Below, in pieces: positions 45,319-50,718 of a DNA stretch of 64,000 bases. The position numbers and the translations under genes were made by a program. The DNA comes from Pseudomonadota bacterium (GTDB taxonomy: Bacteria > Pseudomonadota > Alphaproteobacteria > Rhizobiales > Aestuariivirgaceae). Each line of letters begins with the position of its first letter. Position 1 is the first letter of the stretch. The stretch covers positions 1 to 64,000 of the forward strand of contig CAUJIO010000020.1 of the NCBI GenBank assembly GCA_963205315.1, in the 5' to 3' direction. Below the pieces are notes generated by a model that searched no databases, was not told where the DNA came from, and saw only the letters and a program-made list of their open reading frames with translations.

Positions 45319-46400
45319 GAACCATTCAAACGGCCCTGCCCCCCGGCTCCACCGTCGGCATCCTCGGCGGAGGTCAGCTTGCCCGCATGCTGACTCTCGC
45401 CGCCGCACCGCTCGGCATCAAGTGCCACATCTTCGCGCCCGAAGCCGACAGCCCGGCCTTTCAGGTCTCTGCCGCCCATACCCTGGCCGCTTATAGCGAT
45501 ACCGAGGCGCTGGCTGCATTTGCGGCTGCGGTGGACGTCGTCACCTATGAGTTCGAGAACGTGCCGGCGGCCACAGCGGCCTTCCTCGCAACGCGTGTCC
45601 CTGTGGCGCCCGGTGTCTTTGCTCTCGAAACCGCGCAGGACCGCGTCACCGAGAAGACATTTATAGCCAGCCTCGGCGTGCCCGTCGCGCCATTTGCTGC
45701 CGTGGATGACATCGAAAGCCTCGAAACGGCTCTGGGCACCATCGGCCGGCCCTCGATTCTCAAGACCAGGCGTTTCGGCTATGACGGCAAGGGCCAGACC
45801 CGCATCGACAGCGACACATCGGCGGCTGCCGCCTTTGCCGAAATCGGCCAGTCTCCGGCCATTCTTGAAGGCTTCGTCCGCTTCGACAAGGAAGTCTCCG
45901 TCATTGCGGCGCGCAGTTGGGACGGATCGATTGCCGTCTTCGACGTGCCGGAGAACCACCACGAGCACCACATCCTCAAGACCTCCACGGTTCCTGCCGA
46001 CATCTGCCCCAGTGTGGCCGAAGAGGCCCGGACCATTGGTGGGCGCATCATCGCAGCACTCGGCTACGTCGGCGTCATCGGCATCGAGATGTTCGTCTCG
46101 GGAGAGCAGCTGACCGTCAACGAGATTGCGCCGCGCGTCCACAATTCCGGCCATTGGACCATGGATGCCTGCTGCGTGTCGCAGTTCGAGCAGCACATCC
46201 GCGCCATCTGCCGGTGGCCGCTGGGCTCGGCTGAGCGCCACTGCGACGTGGTCATGACCAATCTGCTTGGTGACGACGCCGGGCGCTGGCAGGCACTGGC
46301 AGCTGAACCGGACGTCCGGATTCACCTCTATGGCAAGTCGGAAGCCCGCCGGGGCCGGAAAATGGGCCACTTTAACCGCCTGACCCCTCGACAGGCCTGA
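45315..46400 (+). CDS. purK: N5-carboxyaminoimidazole ribonucleotide synthase
   Basis: A 361-residue ATP-grasp ligase. N-terminal [16 protein letters not shown] binds the ribonucleotide substrate, [16 protein letters not shown] is the ATP-binding loop, and [19 protein letters not shown] is the conserved C-terminal motif. It uses ATP and bicarbonate to carboxylate AIR, the step before PurE. Confidence 0.96.
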
Positions 46401-46815: not shown

Positions 46816-46941
46816 CTGGGACAACTCTTTTTGGCGCCCAATTATGGCAGTTGCCGTAATTGCCATAACTCAGCCACAGCTTCCCACAAATCCGTAACAC
46901 ATCCGTCCCAGAGCTGGACGACTCAGCCTCTAGTTAAACCT

Positions 46942-46972
46942 CAGATGAACGGCGCATTCAGTCTGGGTTCCA
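46942..46972 (+). promoter_or_regulatory. Upstream element shared by small exported protein genes, copy 1
   Basis: This 31-bp stretch begins CAGATGAACGGCGCATTCAG and ends GTTCCA. It matches the copy at 47891-47921 at 24 of 31 positions by eye, and TAAAC precedes both. It lies 86 bp before the start of the first paralogue; the other copy is 87 bp before the third. A promoter or regulator site is the simplest reading. Confidence 0.6.
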
Positions 46973-47027: not shown

Positions 47028-47228
47028 ATGATCCGCTACACACTCTTCGCCCTGGCAATCCTTGCCACAACGGCCACAGCGATCGCTGCAGTGCAGCCCC
47101 TCACCGCCCCTGCTCCGTCGGACCCGGCCAACGTCACCGTCGTTGCCAAAAACAGCCCCTTCCCGGTGATGGGCCCCATCGTCGTCGAGCAATGTGCTGT
47201 GGAGGATTGTTCCGACGCGACCAACTGA
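47028..47228 (+). CDS. Small exported protein with C-x4-C tail, paralogue 1
   Basis: A 66-residue protein with a signal peptide of about 21 residues (MIRYTLFALAILATTATAIA). The mature part is about 45 residues: a Pro/Ala-rich stretch, then NVTVVAKNSPFPVMGPIVVE and C-x4-C-S-D near the C-terminus (Cys56, Cys61). I know no described family. Two paralogues follow within 1 kb with the same tail. An in-frame start at 46986 would place the leader internally, so 47028 is preferred. Confidence 0.75.
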   Translation: MIRYTLFALAILATTATAIAAVQPLTAPAPSDPANVTVVAKNSPFPVMGPIVVEQCAVEDCSDATN

Positions 47229-47355
47229 ATTTGTCGGGCGGTGACGCCAGACAAGACCGGAGTGCGGGGCGAAGCGCTCTAACCAGCCCCCTCTCAGAGC
47301 TTGAAGTTTCGCACTCCGGTCACGATCTCTTCCCTATCCCCAGGCAGTACTTCCC

Positions 47356-47372
47356 CCCATCCCCTGCAAACG
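47356..47372 (+). repeat. 17-bp repeat downstream of paralogue 1
   Basis: CCCATCCCCTGCAAACG occurs here and identically at 47806-47822, after paralogue 2. Such shared 3' flanking DNA supports duplication of the gene and its flank. Confidence 0.7.
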
Positions 47373-47386
47373 CTGCCTGCACCTGA

Positions 47387-47417
47387 AGCCCCGAGCACAG
47401 TCTCGGGGCTTTTTTTC
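47387..47417 (+). terminator. Rho-independent terminator
   Basis: AGCCCCGAG (47387-47395) pairs with CTCGGGGCT (47402-47410), followed by a T-run. It ends the transcript of paralogue 1. Confidence 0.9.
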
Positions 47418-47478
47418 GGGCAACATTCCTGAAACGCCTCTCGCCGGGCGCCGAGCCGCCTGAAACAATAATTTCAGA

Positions 47479-47506
47479 GTCACACGATGGTGTGACCTGC
47501 GTTACA
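47479..47506. promoter_or_regulatory. Palindrome and CRP-like site upstream of paralogue 2
   Basis: GTCACAC-GATG-GTGTGAC (47479-47496) is a perfect 7-4-7 inverted repeat. Overlapping it, TGTGA-CCTGCG-TTACA (47491-47506) fits the CRP consensus TGTGA-N6-TCACA at 9 of 10 bases. It is about 80-105 bp before the start, a usual position for an activator. Confidence 0.45.
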
Positions 47507-47584
47507 GTCTTGTGAGCGGCATCGGCGTATTAAATCACCATATCGAGACAGCCGGGAAACACCGGCGTCTCCGGGAGACGTCAG

Positions 47585-47788
47585 ATGAAACGCTATACAC
47601 TCTTTCTGCTGATTGTTGCGGGCTCCGCCGCCAGCGCCATCGCCGCGATTGCCCCCGATCAGCGCACCGCTTTCGAATCGAACCCGCGCAACGTCACCGT
47701 CGTCGAGAAGAACCAGGCGTTCCCGCTGGTCGGGCCGCTGGTCGTCGAAGCCTGCGGTGTCGAGGATTGTTCCGACGTCCGAAGCTAG
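47585..47788 (+). CDS. Small exported protein with C-x4-C tail, paralogue 2
   Basis: A 67-residue protein, preceded by CGGGAGACGTCAG (GGGAG about 8 nt before ATG). The signal peptide (MKRYTLFLLIVAGSAASAIA) closely resembles that of paralogue 1. The mature tail NVTVVEKNQAFPLVGPLVVE then ACGVEDCSD keeps the two cysteines (57, 62). DNA near the end (GAGGATTGTTCCGACG) is identical to paralogue 1. Expected to be periplasmic or secreted; function unknown. Confidence 0.78.
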   Translation: MKRYTLFLLIVAGSAASAIAAIAPDQRTAFESNPRNVTVVEKNQAFPLVGPLVVEACGVEDCSDVRS

Positions 47789-47805
47789 CAGATCCCCAAG
47801 GGCGG

Positions 47806-47822
47806 CCCATCCCCTGCAAACG
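47806..47822 (+). repeat. 17-bp repeat downstream of paralogue 2
   Basis: Second copy of CCCATCCCCTGCAAACG; the first is at 47356-47372. Confidence 0.7.
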
Positions 47823-47840
47823 ATACCGCCCGCAACTCAA

Positions 47841-47872
47841 GGGCCCCGGTCCTCCCCCGGGGCCCGCTTTTC
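47841..47872 (+). terminator. Rho-independent terminator
   Basis: GGGCCCCGG (47841-47849) pairs with CCGGGGCCC (47857-47865), followed by GCTTTTCC. It ends the transcript of paralogue 2. Confidence 0.85.
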
Positions 47873-47890
47873 CTAACGAATTCTAAACGC

Positions 47891-47921
47891 CAGATGAATG
47901 CCGCATTCAGCACCTGTTCCA
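47891..47921 (+). promoter_or_regulatory. Upstream element shared by small exported protein genes, copy 2
   Basis: Begins CAGATGAATGCCGCATTCAG and contains TGAATGC-C-GCATTCA, a perfect palindrome. The match to 46942-46972 and the equal distance to the start (87 bp) point to common control of paralogues 1 and 3. Confidence 0.6.
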
Positions 47922-47977
47922 GCCACGAGATGCAACTTTAATCCACACTGAGCGTTCTCTTTGAAGGAGAGAGAAAA

Positions 47978-48178
47978 ATGAAGACCCTGACCACATCGCT
48001 GATCCTGAGTGTCATGTTCCTGTCGGCCGGCGCCTTCGCCGGGGCCAGCAGCCACGCTCCGGCCACCGCCGTGGCAGACCCCGCCAACATCACGGTGATC
48101 GAAAAAAATCAGGCCTGGCCGCTTCCCGGCCGCATCACCGTCGACCCCTGCAACGCCAGCCGCTGCATCGACGTGTGA
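47978..48178 (+). CDS. Small exported protein with C-x4-C tail, paralogue 3
   Basis: A 66-residue protein, with GAAGGAGAGAG before the ATG (strong ribosome-binding site). The signal peptide (residues ~1-22) differs from the other two, but the mature tail ANITVIEKNQAWPLPGRITV then DPCNASRCIDV follows the same pattern, with cysteines at 58 and 63. It is the most divergent of the three. No known family recognised. Confidence 0.75.
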   Translation: MKTLTTSLILSVMFLSAGAFAGASSHAPATAVADPANITVIEKNQAWPLPGRITVDPCNASRCIDV

Positions 48179-48379
48179 TCGTTCCAGAAACACAGCTCAA
48201 TTTCTCCATCATCTCACTGAAACGGATGACGACAGGCGCACCCGGCAAATCATAGCGTTGGACCGTCAGAGGATTCTGAACCCTCGTTTCCTCTTTCTAG
48301 CGAAATGGCGGGGAGCGCAGCCGTCTCCAACTGTTTTCCCGGCGGCGTCATCCGTCATTTCGCGTTTTTTTTGAAGGCA

Positions 48380-49662: not shown

Positions 49663-50718
49663 ATGTACCGCAGAGCATCTGTTCGGGTTTCGGTTTCCCT
49701 TGCTATGGGACTTTGCTCCGCTGCTCATGCGGCGGTAACGGTCGACTCCGCCAAGATCGTTGGCGGCAAACTGGTGGTTACGGGCTCGAGCACCACAGGA
49801 GCCAAGATCAAGCTGGACGGCAAGTTCGGCGCGGCCATCGATGATGCCAATGACAAGTTTTCCTTCTCGCTGACCTACCTGCCGCCGGATTGCATCGTCG
49901 ACCTGCAGGTGGTTGGCGAAACCGCCACCACAACAGCTGTGATCGCCTTTTGCGGACCTAAGGGCGTCAACCCGCGCGGCGAATGGACGGCAACCGCTGC
50001 CTATGCCGTCGATGACGTTGTCACCAATCAGGGTTCAAGCTGGCGCGCACTGGCTCCCACCACGGGCAAGCTGCCGACACTCGCCACGCCCGAATGGGAA
50101 CGCTTCGTCGCCAGGGGCGATACCGGGCAGGCGGGCCCCGCAGGCCCGCAAGGCGCTGCGGGCGTACAAGGCCCGGCAGGTCCAAAGGGCGATACGGGAA
50201 GCACTGGCGCGGCAGGACCAGCGGGCGCTACGGGTCCGGCTGGTCCCAAAGGCTCAACAGGAGCAACAGGCCCGGTCGGGCCGCAAGGCCCCGAGGGTCC
50301 TGGAGCTAGGCCACCAATGTGGCTCTACGGGCAATACCATTCCGCACTCGATTCAACCATGGCGGACAGTGGCCAGGTGGCAAACTCCCCCCTGCTCTAT
50401 TCGCCCGTCAGCGGCTATGCGGTGTTCCGCGTAACGGGAAGCTGCTTTGTGCATGGCGTCCTGAAGGGTACGTATCGAATCAAGGTCAGATCCCTTACCG
50501 ATATTAATATACCCGCTGACGATTCGATGGATGCCCGGTTTTCAATTCCGATCGTGATTGGAGCTGATTCGGCTTTTCAACAGGTGCCGTTTACCGCGAC
50601 ATGGATTTCTGCGGTAACTGCCAATTCGCCTTTCCTGGCATCGGTTCAATACGAAAAGGACGACGACGGGAGTGCCAGCGCCGACTGCGCCTACAATATC
50701 TTTGTGGAAGTATTCTAA
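49663..50718 (+). CDS. Secreted collagen-like protein with carbohydrate-binding-like module
   Basis: A 351-residue protein with GAGGA before its start. Signal peptide residues 1-23; a ~75-residue beta domain with two Cys (77, 97); residues ~107-150 ([20 protein letters not shown]...) resemble CBM5/12-like modules; residues 152-214 are 21 uninterrupted Gly-X-Y triplets ([20 protein letters not shown] and on). The C-terminal ~137 residues form a beta-rich domain with two Cys that could trimerise. The order module-collagen-knob resembles phage tail fibres and surface filaments, but no phage genes are nearby. Probably a surface or extracellular adhesin. Confidence 0.83.

Follow-up and report, generated by a model that had tools for sequence, protein, structure and literature searches.

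Background

In E. coli, osmotic two-component systems control the small RNAs (sRNAs) MicF and OmrA/B, which lower outer-membrane proteins; these are free-standing sRNA genes without a co-encoded protein. The same control logic, although with a co-encoded protein, is proposed here for a locus in a 64,000-nucleotide (nt) stretch (the window) of a 4.67 Mb genome (G000) of the genus Aestuariivirga, order Hyphomicrobiales. The locus carries three tandem open reading frames (ORFs), t1, t2 and t3, for tiny exported proteins. Comparison between species makes it quite likely that the messenger RNAs (mRNAs) of t1 and t2 end in an sRNA, derived from the 3' untranslated region (3'UTR), which would pair with the leader of an unlinked porin-like gene and probably repress it.

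Several sRNAs derived from the ends of mRNAs have been described. According to the available part of a review of 3'-end sRNAs, MalH of E. coli originates from the 3' end of malEFG and lowers ompC and ompA; SorX and PcrX of Rhodobacter sphaeroides are also named (PMC9438474). As described there, MalH resembles the RNA proposed here in being an mRNA-3'-end sRNA acting on porin mRNAs. However, its host is a gamma-proteobacterial uptake operon, whereas the present elements form a multi-copy family behind genes for tiny exported proteins and their target element lies far 5' of the start codon. An alphaproteobacterial example of small-protein 3'UTR origin is provided by CcsR1-4 of R. sphaeroides, processed from the 3'UTR of ccaF1; in the summary of that work the host gene encodes a DUF1127 RNA-binding protein and the targets lie in C1 metabolism and pyruvate dehydrogenase (PMC8625941). 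The t1-t3 proteins match no Pfam family above cut-off, DUF1127 included. The loop motif of CcsR/ccaF1 is reportedly CCUCCUCCC; membership in that group was rejected, since the loop core here is UCCCCUGCAA and DUF1127 is absent.

Sibling sRNAs are likewise known from Caulobacter, where SisA, one of the four members SisA-D (alpha-r8), represses a TonB-receptor mRNA among others; the accessible text on SisA-D mentions no exported small proteins (PMC12559287). At the present locus, in contrast, no Rfam model comes near its gathering score between positions 46400 and 48600, alpha-r15 (AbcR, RF02345) reaching 17.5 bits against a gathering score of 40. On the side of regulation, TTCA-N7-TTCA has been proposed as the FeuP site of Sinorhizobium meliloti (PMC3616915) and resembles the core of the promoter box described below. 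The FeuP regulon is summarised as answering osmotic stress and as including the periplasmic protein FeuN, which binds the sensor FeuQ and holds it in check (PMC12486126). Unlike this system, t1-t3 do not stand beside a two-component pair; the likeness to FeuN is one of description, and the parts of the FeuP literature consulted hold no link to an sRNA or a porin.

No publication on a small RNA in Aestuariivirga was found in the open-licence literature, nor, by title or the beginning of the abstract, any description of an exported-protein/porin RNA pair; the available part of the review cited above contains none either. The kind of regulator, a 3'UTR sRNA acting on a porin, is known; the family, its host genes and the visible joint drift of both partners are new. 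Pairing between an sRNA and its target can seldom be seen from genomes alone, and two sides that change together constitute a natural test of specificity. Moreover, the pairing connects outer-membrane permeability with an unnamed family of tiny exported proteins that is widely conserved: porin control and a periplasmic peptide may be coupled in one mRNA, in a free-living and little-studied lineage belonging to the order of Sinorhizobium.

Complementarity between the 3'UTR loop and a porin-like leader

The ORFs and the 3' elements that concern the pairing are as follows.

47028-47228, forward strand: ORF t1, tiny exported protein of 66 amino acids (aa) with C-x4-C (ORF list, family comparison, ratio of nonsynonymous to synonymous substitution, dN/dS)
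47341-47379, forward strand: t1 3'UTR hairpin III with porin-complementary loop (predicted fold, motif, alignment)
47353-47372, forward strand: t1 20-nt seed CCCCCCATCCCCTGCAAACG, perfect complement of the porin leader on contig C47 (genome search, pairing)
47387-47416, forward strand: t1 intrinsic terminator (predicted fold, consensus stem)
47585-47788, forward strand: ORF t2, tiny exported protein of 67 aa with C-x4-C (ORF list, family comparison, dN/dS)
47800-47831, forward strand: t2 3'UTR hairpin with porin-complementary loop (predicted fold, motif)
47806-47822, forward strand: t2 17-nt seed CCCATCCCCTGCAAACG, porin-leader complement (genome search, pairing)
47841-47872, forward strand: t2 intrinsic terminator, stem 47841-47865, short T-run (predicted fold)
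47978-48178, forward strand: ORF t3, second subfamily of tiny exported protein, 66 aa (ORF list, alignment, dN/dS)
48179-48374, forward strand: t3 3'UTR with its own long stem and T-run, without TCCCCTGCAA (predicted fold, motif search)

An earlier note, made from the window alone, had pointed to these three ORFs, with their shared N-[VI]-T-V tail and C-x4-C pair, to hairpin-plus-T terminators behind the first two and to 17 base pairs (bp) common to both 3' flanks. All of these are present. The common 17 bp had been taken for a residue of duplication; they prove instead to be an element conserved across the genus and complementary to the porin leader, and in both copies they form the loop of a predicted hairpin directly before the terminator. 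Among the 76 family rows collected from 35 loci and the window (25 t1, 25 t2, 26 t3), TCCCCTGCA occurs in 48 of the 50 t1/t2 3'UTRs, the exceptions being G019 and one of two G009 copies, and the loop motif as searched is found in none of the 26 t3 3'UTRs. The T preceding CCCCTGCAA is invariant in the alignment, which holds 43 of the 47 rows with CCCCTGCAA (4 were left out) and in which CCCCTGCAA itself is fixed by the selection criterion. Around the loop the stem sequences vary from copy to copy. The stem of the terminator alone persists in the alignment consensus, and 6 of its 8 pairs show changes on both sides.

In the window genome CATCCCCTGCAAACG has three exact occurrences and one with a mismatch. 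One of the exact copies is on the other strand and belongs to the leader of an unlinked gene whose product has 398 aa and a signal peptide. The element reads CGTTTGCAGGGGATGGGGGG there and stands 51 nt 5' of the ATG; in the leaders of other species the distance to the start codon is 47-63 nt. Pairing with this leader is gapless over 20 bases for t1 and 17 for t2. The RNAduplex energy of t1 with its own porin leader (-64.2) is better than those of 300 of 300 shuffles and of 47 of 47 other window leaders. The product of the target gene is porin-like, since relatives match porin families and a profile of the target matches a solved porin structure. The window-genome protein alone matches no Pfam or NCBIfam family above cut-off and no porin model was matched in NCBIfam; among 18 aligned relatives, 2 match Pfam Porin_2 (best 2.8e-9), 2 match Porin_4 (3.7e-6) and a few others match weaker barrel models, and the profile meets the DcaP-like porin 6eus with an E-value of 0.0024 over 307 of 406 positions.

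When the pattern TTGCAGGGGANNGGGG, with two bases left free, was searched in 37 genomes of the genus, it occurred at 68 places in 31 of them, and its reversed control at none. These places comprise 35 porin leaders (two of which, in G025 and G030, lie at contig ends and are assigned by likeness), 30 t1/t2 3'UTRs and three other RNA-like copies (G000:C62, G001:C20, G035:C53). Both parts are present in 29 genomes. In 28 of these the two variable bases of at least one RNA copy match the porin exactly (CA/TG, GA/TC or GG/CC); all RNA copies are exact in 27 genomes, and 40 of 42 copies match individually. The porin state is TG in 12 genomes, TC in 11 and CC in 6, and random pairing of the 29 genomes (20,000 trials) gave a mean of 10.2 matches and a maximum of 20. 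For the motif-bearing leaders tested, the longest unbroken pairing is 11-21 nt; in 27 of the 29 genomes, 200 dinucleotide shuffles never gave a pairing as long as the real one. Comparison across the genus shows the hairpin-loop element, its complementarity to the leader and the co-variation of the two, and pairing between loop and leader may be considered well supported.

The matches are not 28 independent events, because relatives share ancestry. On the porin tree (midpoint root, backbone not resolved, some long branches) the TG rows group together, next to TC rows, and those with CC are found at two positions; this implies two or three separate joint changes rather than 28. Of the other eight genomes, G024 has the RNA, with a porin that was found to lack the element, G019 has neither part, which speaks for the pairing, and G005 (66% complete) yielded neither; G009, G015, G020, G022 and G023 contain the RNA and no porin leader was found in them, the porin search giving either nothing or fragments. 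On the porin tree G019 and G024 are sisters, an arrangement that would fit an earlier loss of the target followed, in G019, by loss of the RNA loop.

Several points, besides this shared ancestry and the two leaders assigned by likeness, weigh against the proposed pairing. The bare decamer TTGCAGGGGA is not enriched in the window genome (8 places against 5 for its reverse): four lie before terminators of exported-protein genes, one in the porin leader and three inside ORFs. G024 retains the RNA loop, and the one porin detected there is without the element; G003 matches at one of the two variable bases and one of two G028 copies half-matches; a porin paralogue has an altered site in G016 and no site in G036. 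For t2 the RNAduplex energy (-54.3) is unremarkable, since a C-rich RNA pairs with many GC-rich leaders: 8 of 300 shuffles do at least as well, and 3 of the 47 window leaders have a lower energy. Duplex energies are also weak for G014 t2, G016, G018, G032 and G033, with z-scores across genomes from -7.9 to +0.9, and the 11-nt match is reached by 4 of 200 shuffles in G032 and by 3 of 200 in G033. RNAduplex energy is a poor discriminator for t2 and for some genomes, and reliance was therefore placed on unbroken pairing and co-variation. The effect of blocking the site on the leader fold, given below, is small. Finally, the two partners were seldom found together in other genera: in genus g2 the RNA element is present behind t-like genes of G038, G041 and G042 (L193, L197, L203), with repeated copies elsewhere, and no porin leader with the element was found, and in g7, g9 and g10 the porin element is present and no partner was seen behind those t-like genes that were read.

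The porin-like leaders of these other genera carry variants of the element: TTGCAGGGGACG in g7 (G049, G050), TTGTAGGGGATC in g9 (G055 and, by likeness, G053 and G057) and TTGCAGGGGATC in g10 (G061, G068); g3 (G043) may be a fourth genus outside Aestuariivirga with such a variant. A scan of the order with a stricter pattern, which is blind to the window's own TG type, matched 9 of 397 genomes, six in the family and three outside it (all inside ORFs). In a neighbouring genus (G037, G038, G040, G041, G042; L206-L210, L232-L235, L246) copies of the C-rich element are clustered, with three inside 2 kb in G041.

A family of tiny exported proteins

The three ORFs are genes of an unnamed family of exported proteins of about 66 residues under purifying selection, because relatives occur throughout the genus and 20 hand-picked pairs, of which 19 are between genomes and one joins two paralogues of G010, have dN/dS values of 0.06-0.40. 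As a single query, copy 2 finds matches in 34 of the 37 genus genomes (E<=0.001). A profile of 28 members extends this to 36 of 37; in the bacterial family as a whole it has matches in 53 of 69 genomes, spread over 7 of 10 genera. The relatives include Aestuariivirga litoralis KCTC 52945 and Aestuariivirga metagenome-assembled genomes. No NCBIfam family is matched above cut-off, as with Pfam, and no relatives were found in viral contigs. These results bear out the earlier note's proposal of an unnamed small exported family under selection, and its alternative of chance ORFs fails. Copies 1 and 2 belong to one subfamily and copy 3 to a second; among the window's three paralogues themselves dN/dS is 0.39, 0.57 and 0.69.

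The view that the leader varies while the tail is held fits, at best, the paralogues of the window. The signal peptide (residues 1-22) has the lower proportion of nonsynonymous differences (pN) in 18 of 20 pairs, and its sequence (MIRYTLFVLAVLGSAATAIA; MKTL..FLSAGAFAG) is among the best-kept parts of the protein. Nor is selection focused on the tail supported: the Cys pair is absent from 5 of 26 t3 rows (L046, L047, L048, L050, L054), from one broken t2 row and from the t1-like genes of G032 and G033 (L204, L205), and some copies that have lost the Cys tail retain the signal peptide. An AlphaFold2 model built on 20 aligned sequences (mean predicted local distance difference test, pLDDT, 60; predicted template modelling score, pTM, 0.25) has moderate confidence for the signal-peptide helix only and not for the mature part.

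Thirty-six stretches of unequal lengths that contain family members were read: purK, rpsU, the family and carB are all present in 8, purK-rpsU alone accompanies the family in 5, carB alone in 9, and neither purK-rpsU nor carB in 14. Seven neighbour proteins were scanned: purE, purK, rpsU, two DUF465 proteins, a LuxR-type regulator and a collagen-repeat protein. The last of these, a collagen-like repeat protein (Pfam Collagen), lies at 49663-50718 of the window, between the locus and carB.

The promoter box and a candidate regulator

Two copies of a conserved box precede genes of the locus.

46937-46970, forward strand: promoter box 1 AACCTCAGATGAACGGCGCATTCAGTCTGGGTTC, beginning 91 nt before ORF 1, TTCA-N7-TTC (box search, consensus)
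47886-47919, forward strand: promoter box 2 AACGCCAGATGAATGCCGCATTCAGCACCTGTTC, beginning 92 nt before ORF 3 (box search, consensus)

This 34-nt box, with the consensus AACGGCAGATGAACGGCGCATTCAGCCTGGGTTC, is established by comparison of upstream regions: it precedes 48 of the 76 family genes (19/25 t1, 12/25 t2, 17/26 t3), against an expectation of 0.013 per 220-nt upstream region, and its TGAA lies 73-97 nt 5' of the start codon in all box-bearing rows but one. The strict form occurs only twice in the window genome, before copies 1 and 3, and the rest of the 64-kb window has no box score above 12 except for the reverse strands of both boxes. The box is absent upstream of window copy 2, which would therefore need read-through or another promoter. 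The earlier description of the first two copies as duplicated transcription units is not borne out: of the two boxes one precedes copy 1 and the other copy 3, and the shared 17 bp are more than a trace of duplication.

The box has the core TTCA-N7-TTC and further conserved bases, compared with TTCA-N7-TTCA for the candidate FeuP site. A candidate operon elsewhere in the window genome (L266; G000:C78, about 81109) encodes a regulator of PmrA/PhoP type (under model cut-offs) and an ORF that looks kinase-like, with a small exported protein in front that has a sub-threshold PepSY match; its genes stand behind TTCATCTTCAGTTCA. With its TTCA-N7-TTCA site, L266 is a candidate equivalent of FeuNPQ.

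A possible mechanism and its alternatives

A t1 or t2 gene would specify a double-purpose transcript, whose ORF yields a tiny protein exported to the periplasm and whose 3'UTR yields a regulatory hairpin. Either within a separate small RNA or while still part of the mRNA end, the C-rich loop (NN-UCCCCUGCAA) would pair in trans with the unlinked porin-like mRNA at the G-rich element (UUGCAGGGGA-NN-GGGG) about 50 nt 5' of its start codon. Pairing at this upstream site would favour a closed form of the Shine-Dalgarno (SD) sequence, which makes repression the likeliest outcome. In most species the porin leader contains an inverted repeat, ACTCCAA...TTGGGAG, over the SD. When the G-rich site was barred from pairing in predicted folds of 32 leaders (28 of the genus and 4 of other genera), SD openness was lower in 21 and higher in 3, the mean falling from 0.38 to 0.30. 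Since blocking tends to close the SD, these folds weakly favour repression. Through the OmpR-type, FeuP-like box, an osmotic or envelope signal would raise the tiny proteins and lower the porin together. We infer from these features expression of the element as RNA, repression of the porin, a FeuP-like regulator and a role for the protein, which may be that of a FeuN-like modulator in the periplasm; any such likeness in action is a guess by analogy.

The direction could be the opposite, with pairing activating the porin or with the porin leader serving as a sponge for RNAs that have other targets. A site some 50 nt from the start codon, the RNA without a porin site in G024 and the loop motif in the 3'UTR of a few porins themselves would all suit this; it appears unlikely nevertheless, in view of the leader folds, where site blocking closes the SD far more often than it opens it, and of the three other decamer places in the window genome, which lie inside ORFs. 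It is improbable that the locus serves the tiny exported protein alone and that the loop is no more than a conserved stretch next to the terminator. In favour of such a reading, the ORFs are under purifying selection and the family occurs in most genomes of the bacterial family. Against it, the loop core is kept behind nearly all t1/t2 genes, is exactly antisense to the porin leader and co-varies with it, and also lies behind genes for an L,D-transpeptidase and an 89-aa protein and, in G004, behind a gene upstream of t3.

Slightly less credible still would be a single DNA- or RNA-binding protein with sites in opposite orientations, whose drifting specificity would produce the co-variation. Changes at two bases would suit a protein site as well as a duplex; yet one copy is placed behind a stop codon, in the predicted hairpin loop that precedes the terminator, and the other in an mRNA leader, the orientation is opposite in 65 assigned places, and pairing of 11-21 nt runs beyond the core by varying lengths. 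The suggestion of the earlier note that the proteins are secreted bacteriocin-like or signalling peptides drew on the signal peptide, the two cysteines and the tandem copies. It is now very doubtful: no protein with the look of an immunity or export function is seen among the seven scanned neighbours, evolution is slow, the place is kept across species (purK-rpsU in 13 and carB in 17 of the 36 stretches, neither in 14), and the sole bacteriocin-named NCBIfam match scores 12.8 bits against a cut-off of 40.

Other genes with the loop element

Beyond the tiny-protein genes of the window genome, the loop core precedes the terminator of an L,D-transpeptidase gene (Pfam YkuD; L093, G000:C3, about 35383), as TCCCCTGCAAG, and that of the gene for an 89-aa exported protein. 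The versions of the box before these two genes are weak, scoring 14.9 and 15.9 where the lowest score in training was 28.8, with a score of 25.3 before a 76-aa neighbour of the 89-aa protein and 30.8 before a DUF1127 gene; the loci were chosen for holding or adjoining the decamer, and the scores therefore give no genome-wide count. In G004 the gene followed by the element is the one upstream of a t3 copy, and in G001 and G035 no tiny exported ORF was seen ahead of an additional copy. The porin's own 3'UTR carries ACCCCTGCAAACG/TTACCCCTGCAAACGA directly after the stop codon and before the terminator in G001, G034 and G035 (L083, L135, L146).

These places suggest, as a tentative possibility that we hold to be rather less than even, a movable 3' porin-silencing cassette, composed of the C-rich loop hairpin and a terminator, on several genes of one envelope-stress regulon: those for the tiny exported proteins, the 89-aa exported protein and the L,D-transpeptidase, joined in some species by the porin gene. 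Porin translation would then be set by the total transcription of these genes, the peptides would act in the periplasm on the same stress pathway, and seed and target would have drifted together at least twice in one family. Such a cassette, if real, would show an sRNA function spread over many 3' ends of one regulon.

As a general rule, the loop motif in porin 3'UTRs was rejected: of 29 porin 3' ends, only those of G001, G034 and G035 and a variant in G024 (L149) carry it. A fifth pattern match at a porin 3' end (G026) lies past the terminator, and G036 has one more copy. In G053 (L236), GATCCCCTGCAAAAG and a terminator stand about where the porin ORF would end, judging by apparent position.

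Two further hairpins are predicted in the t1 3'UTR.

47231-47254, forward strand: t1 3'UTR hairpin I (predicted fold)
47255-47321, forward strand: t1 3'UTR hairpin II, 16-bp outer stem, loop with GCCCCCTCTC (predicted fold, 3'UTR comparison)

This second C-rich loop, as GCCCCCTCTC or GCCCCCTC, recurs in a long stable hairpin behind several t1- and t3-type genes and also behind the 76-aa exported protein (the upstream gene of L060). On visual inspection, 6-7 of its bases could pair with the same G-run in the porin leader.

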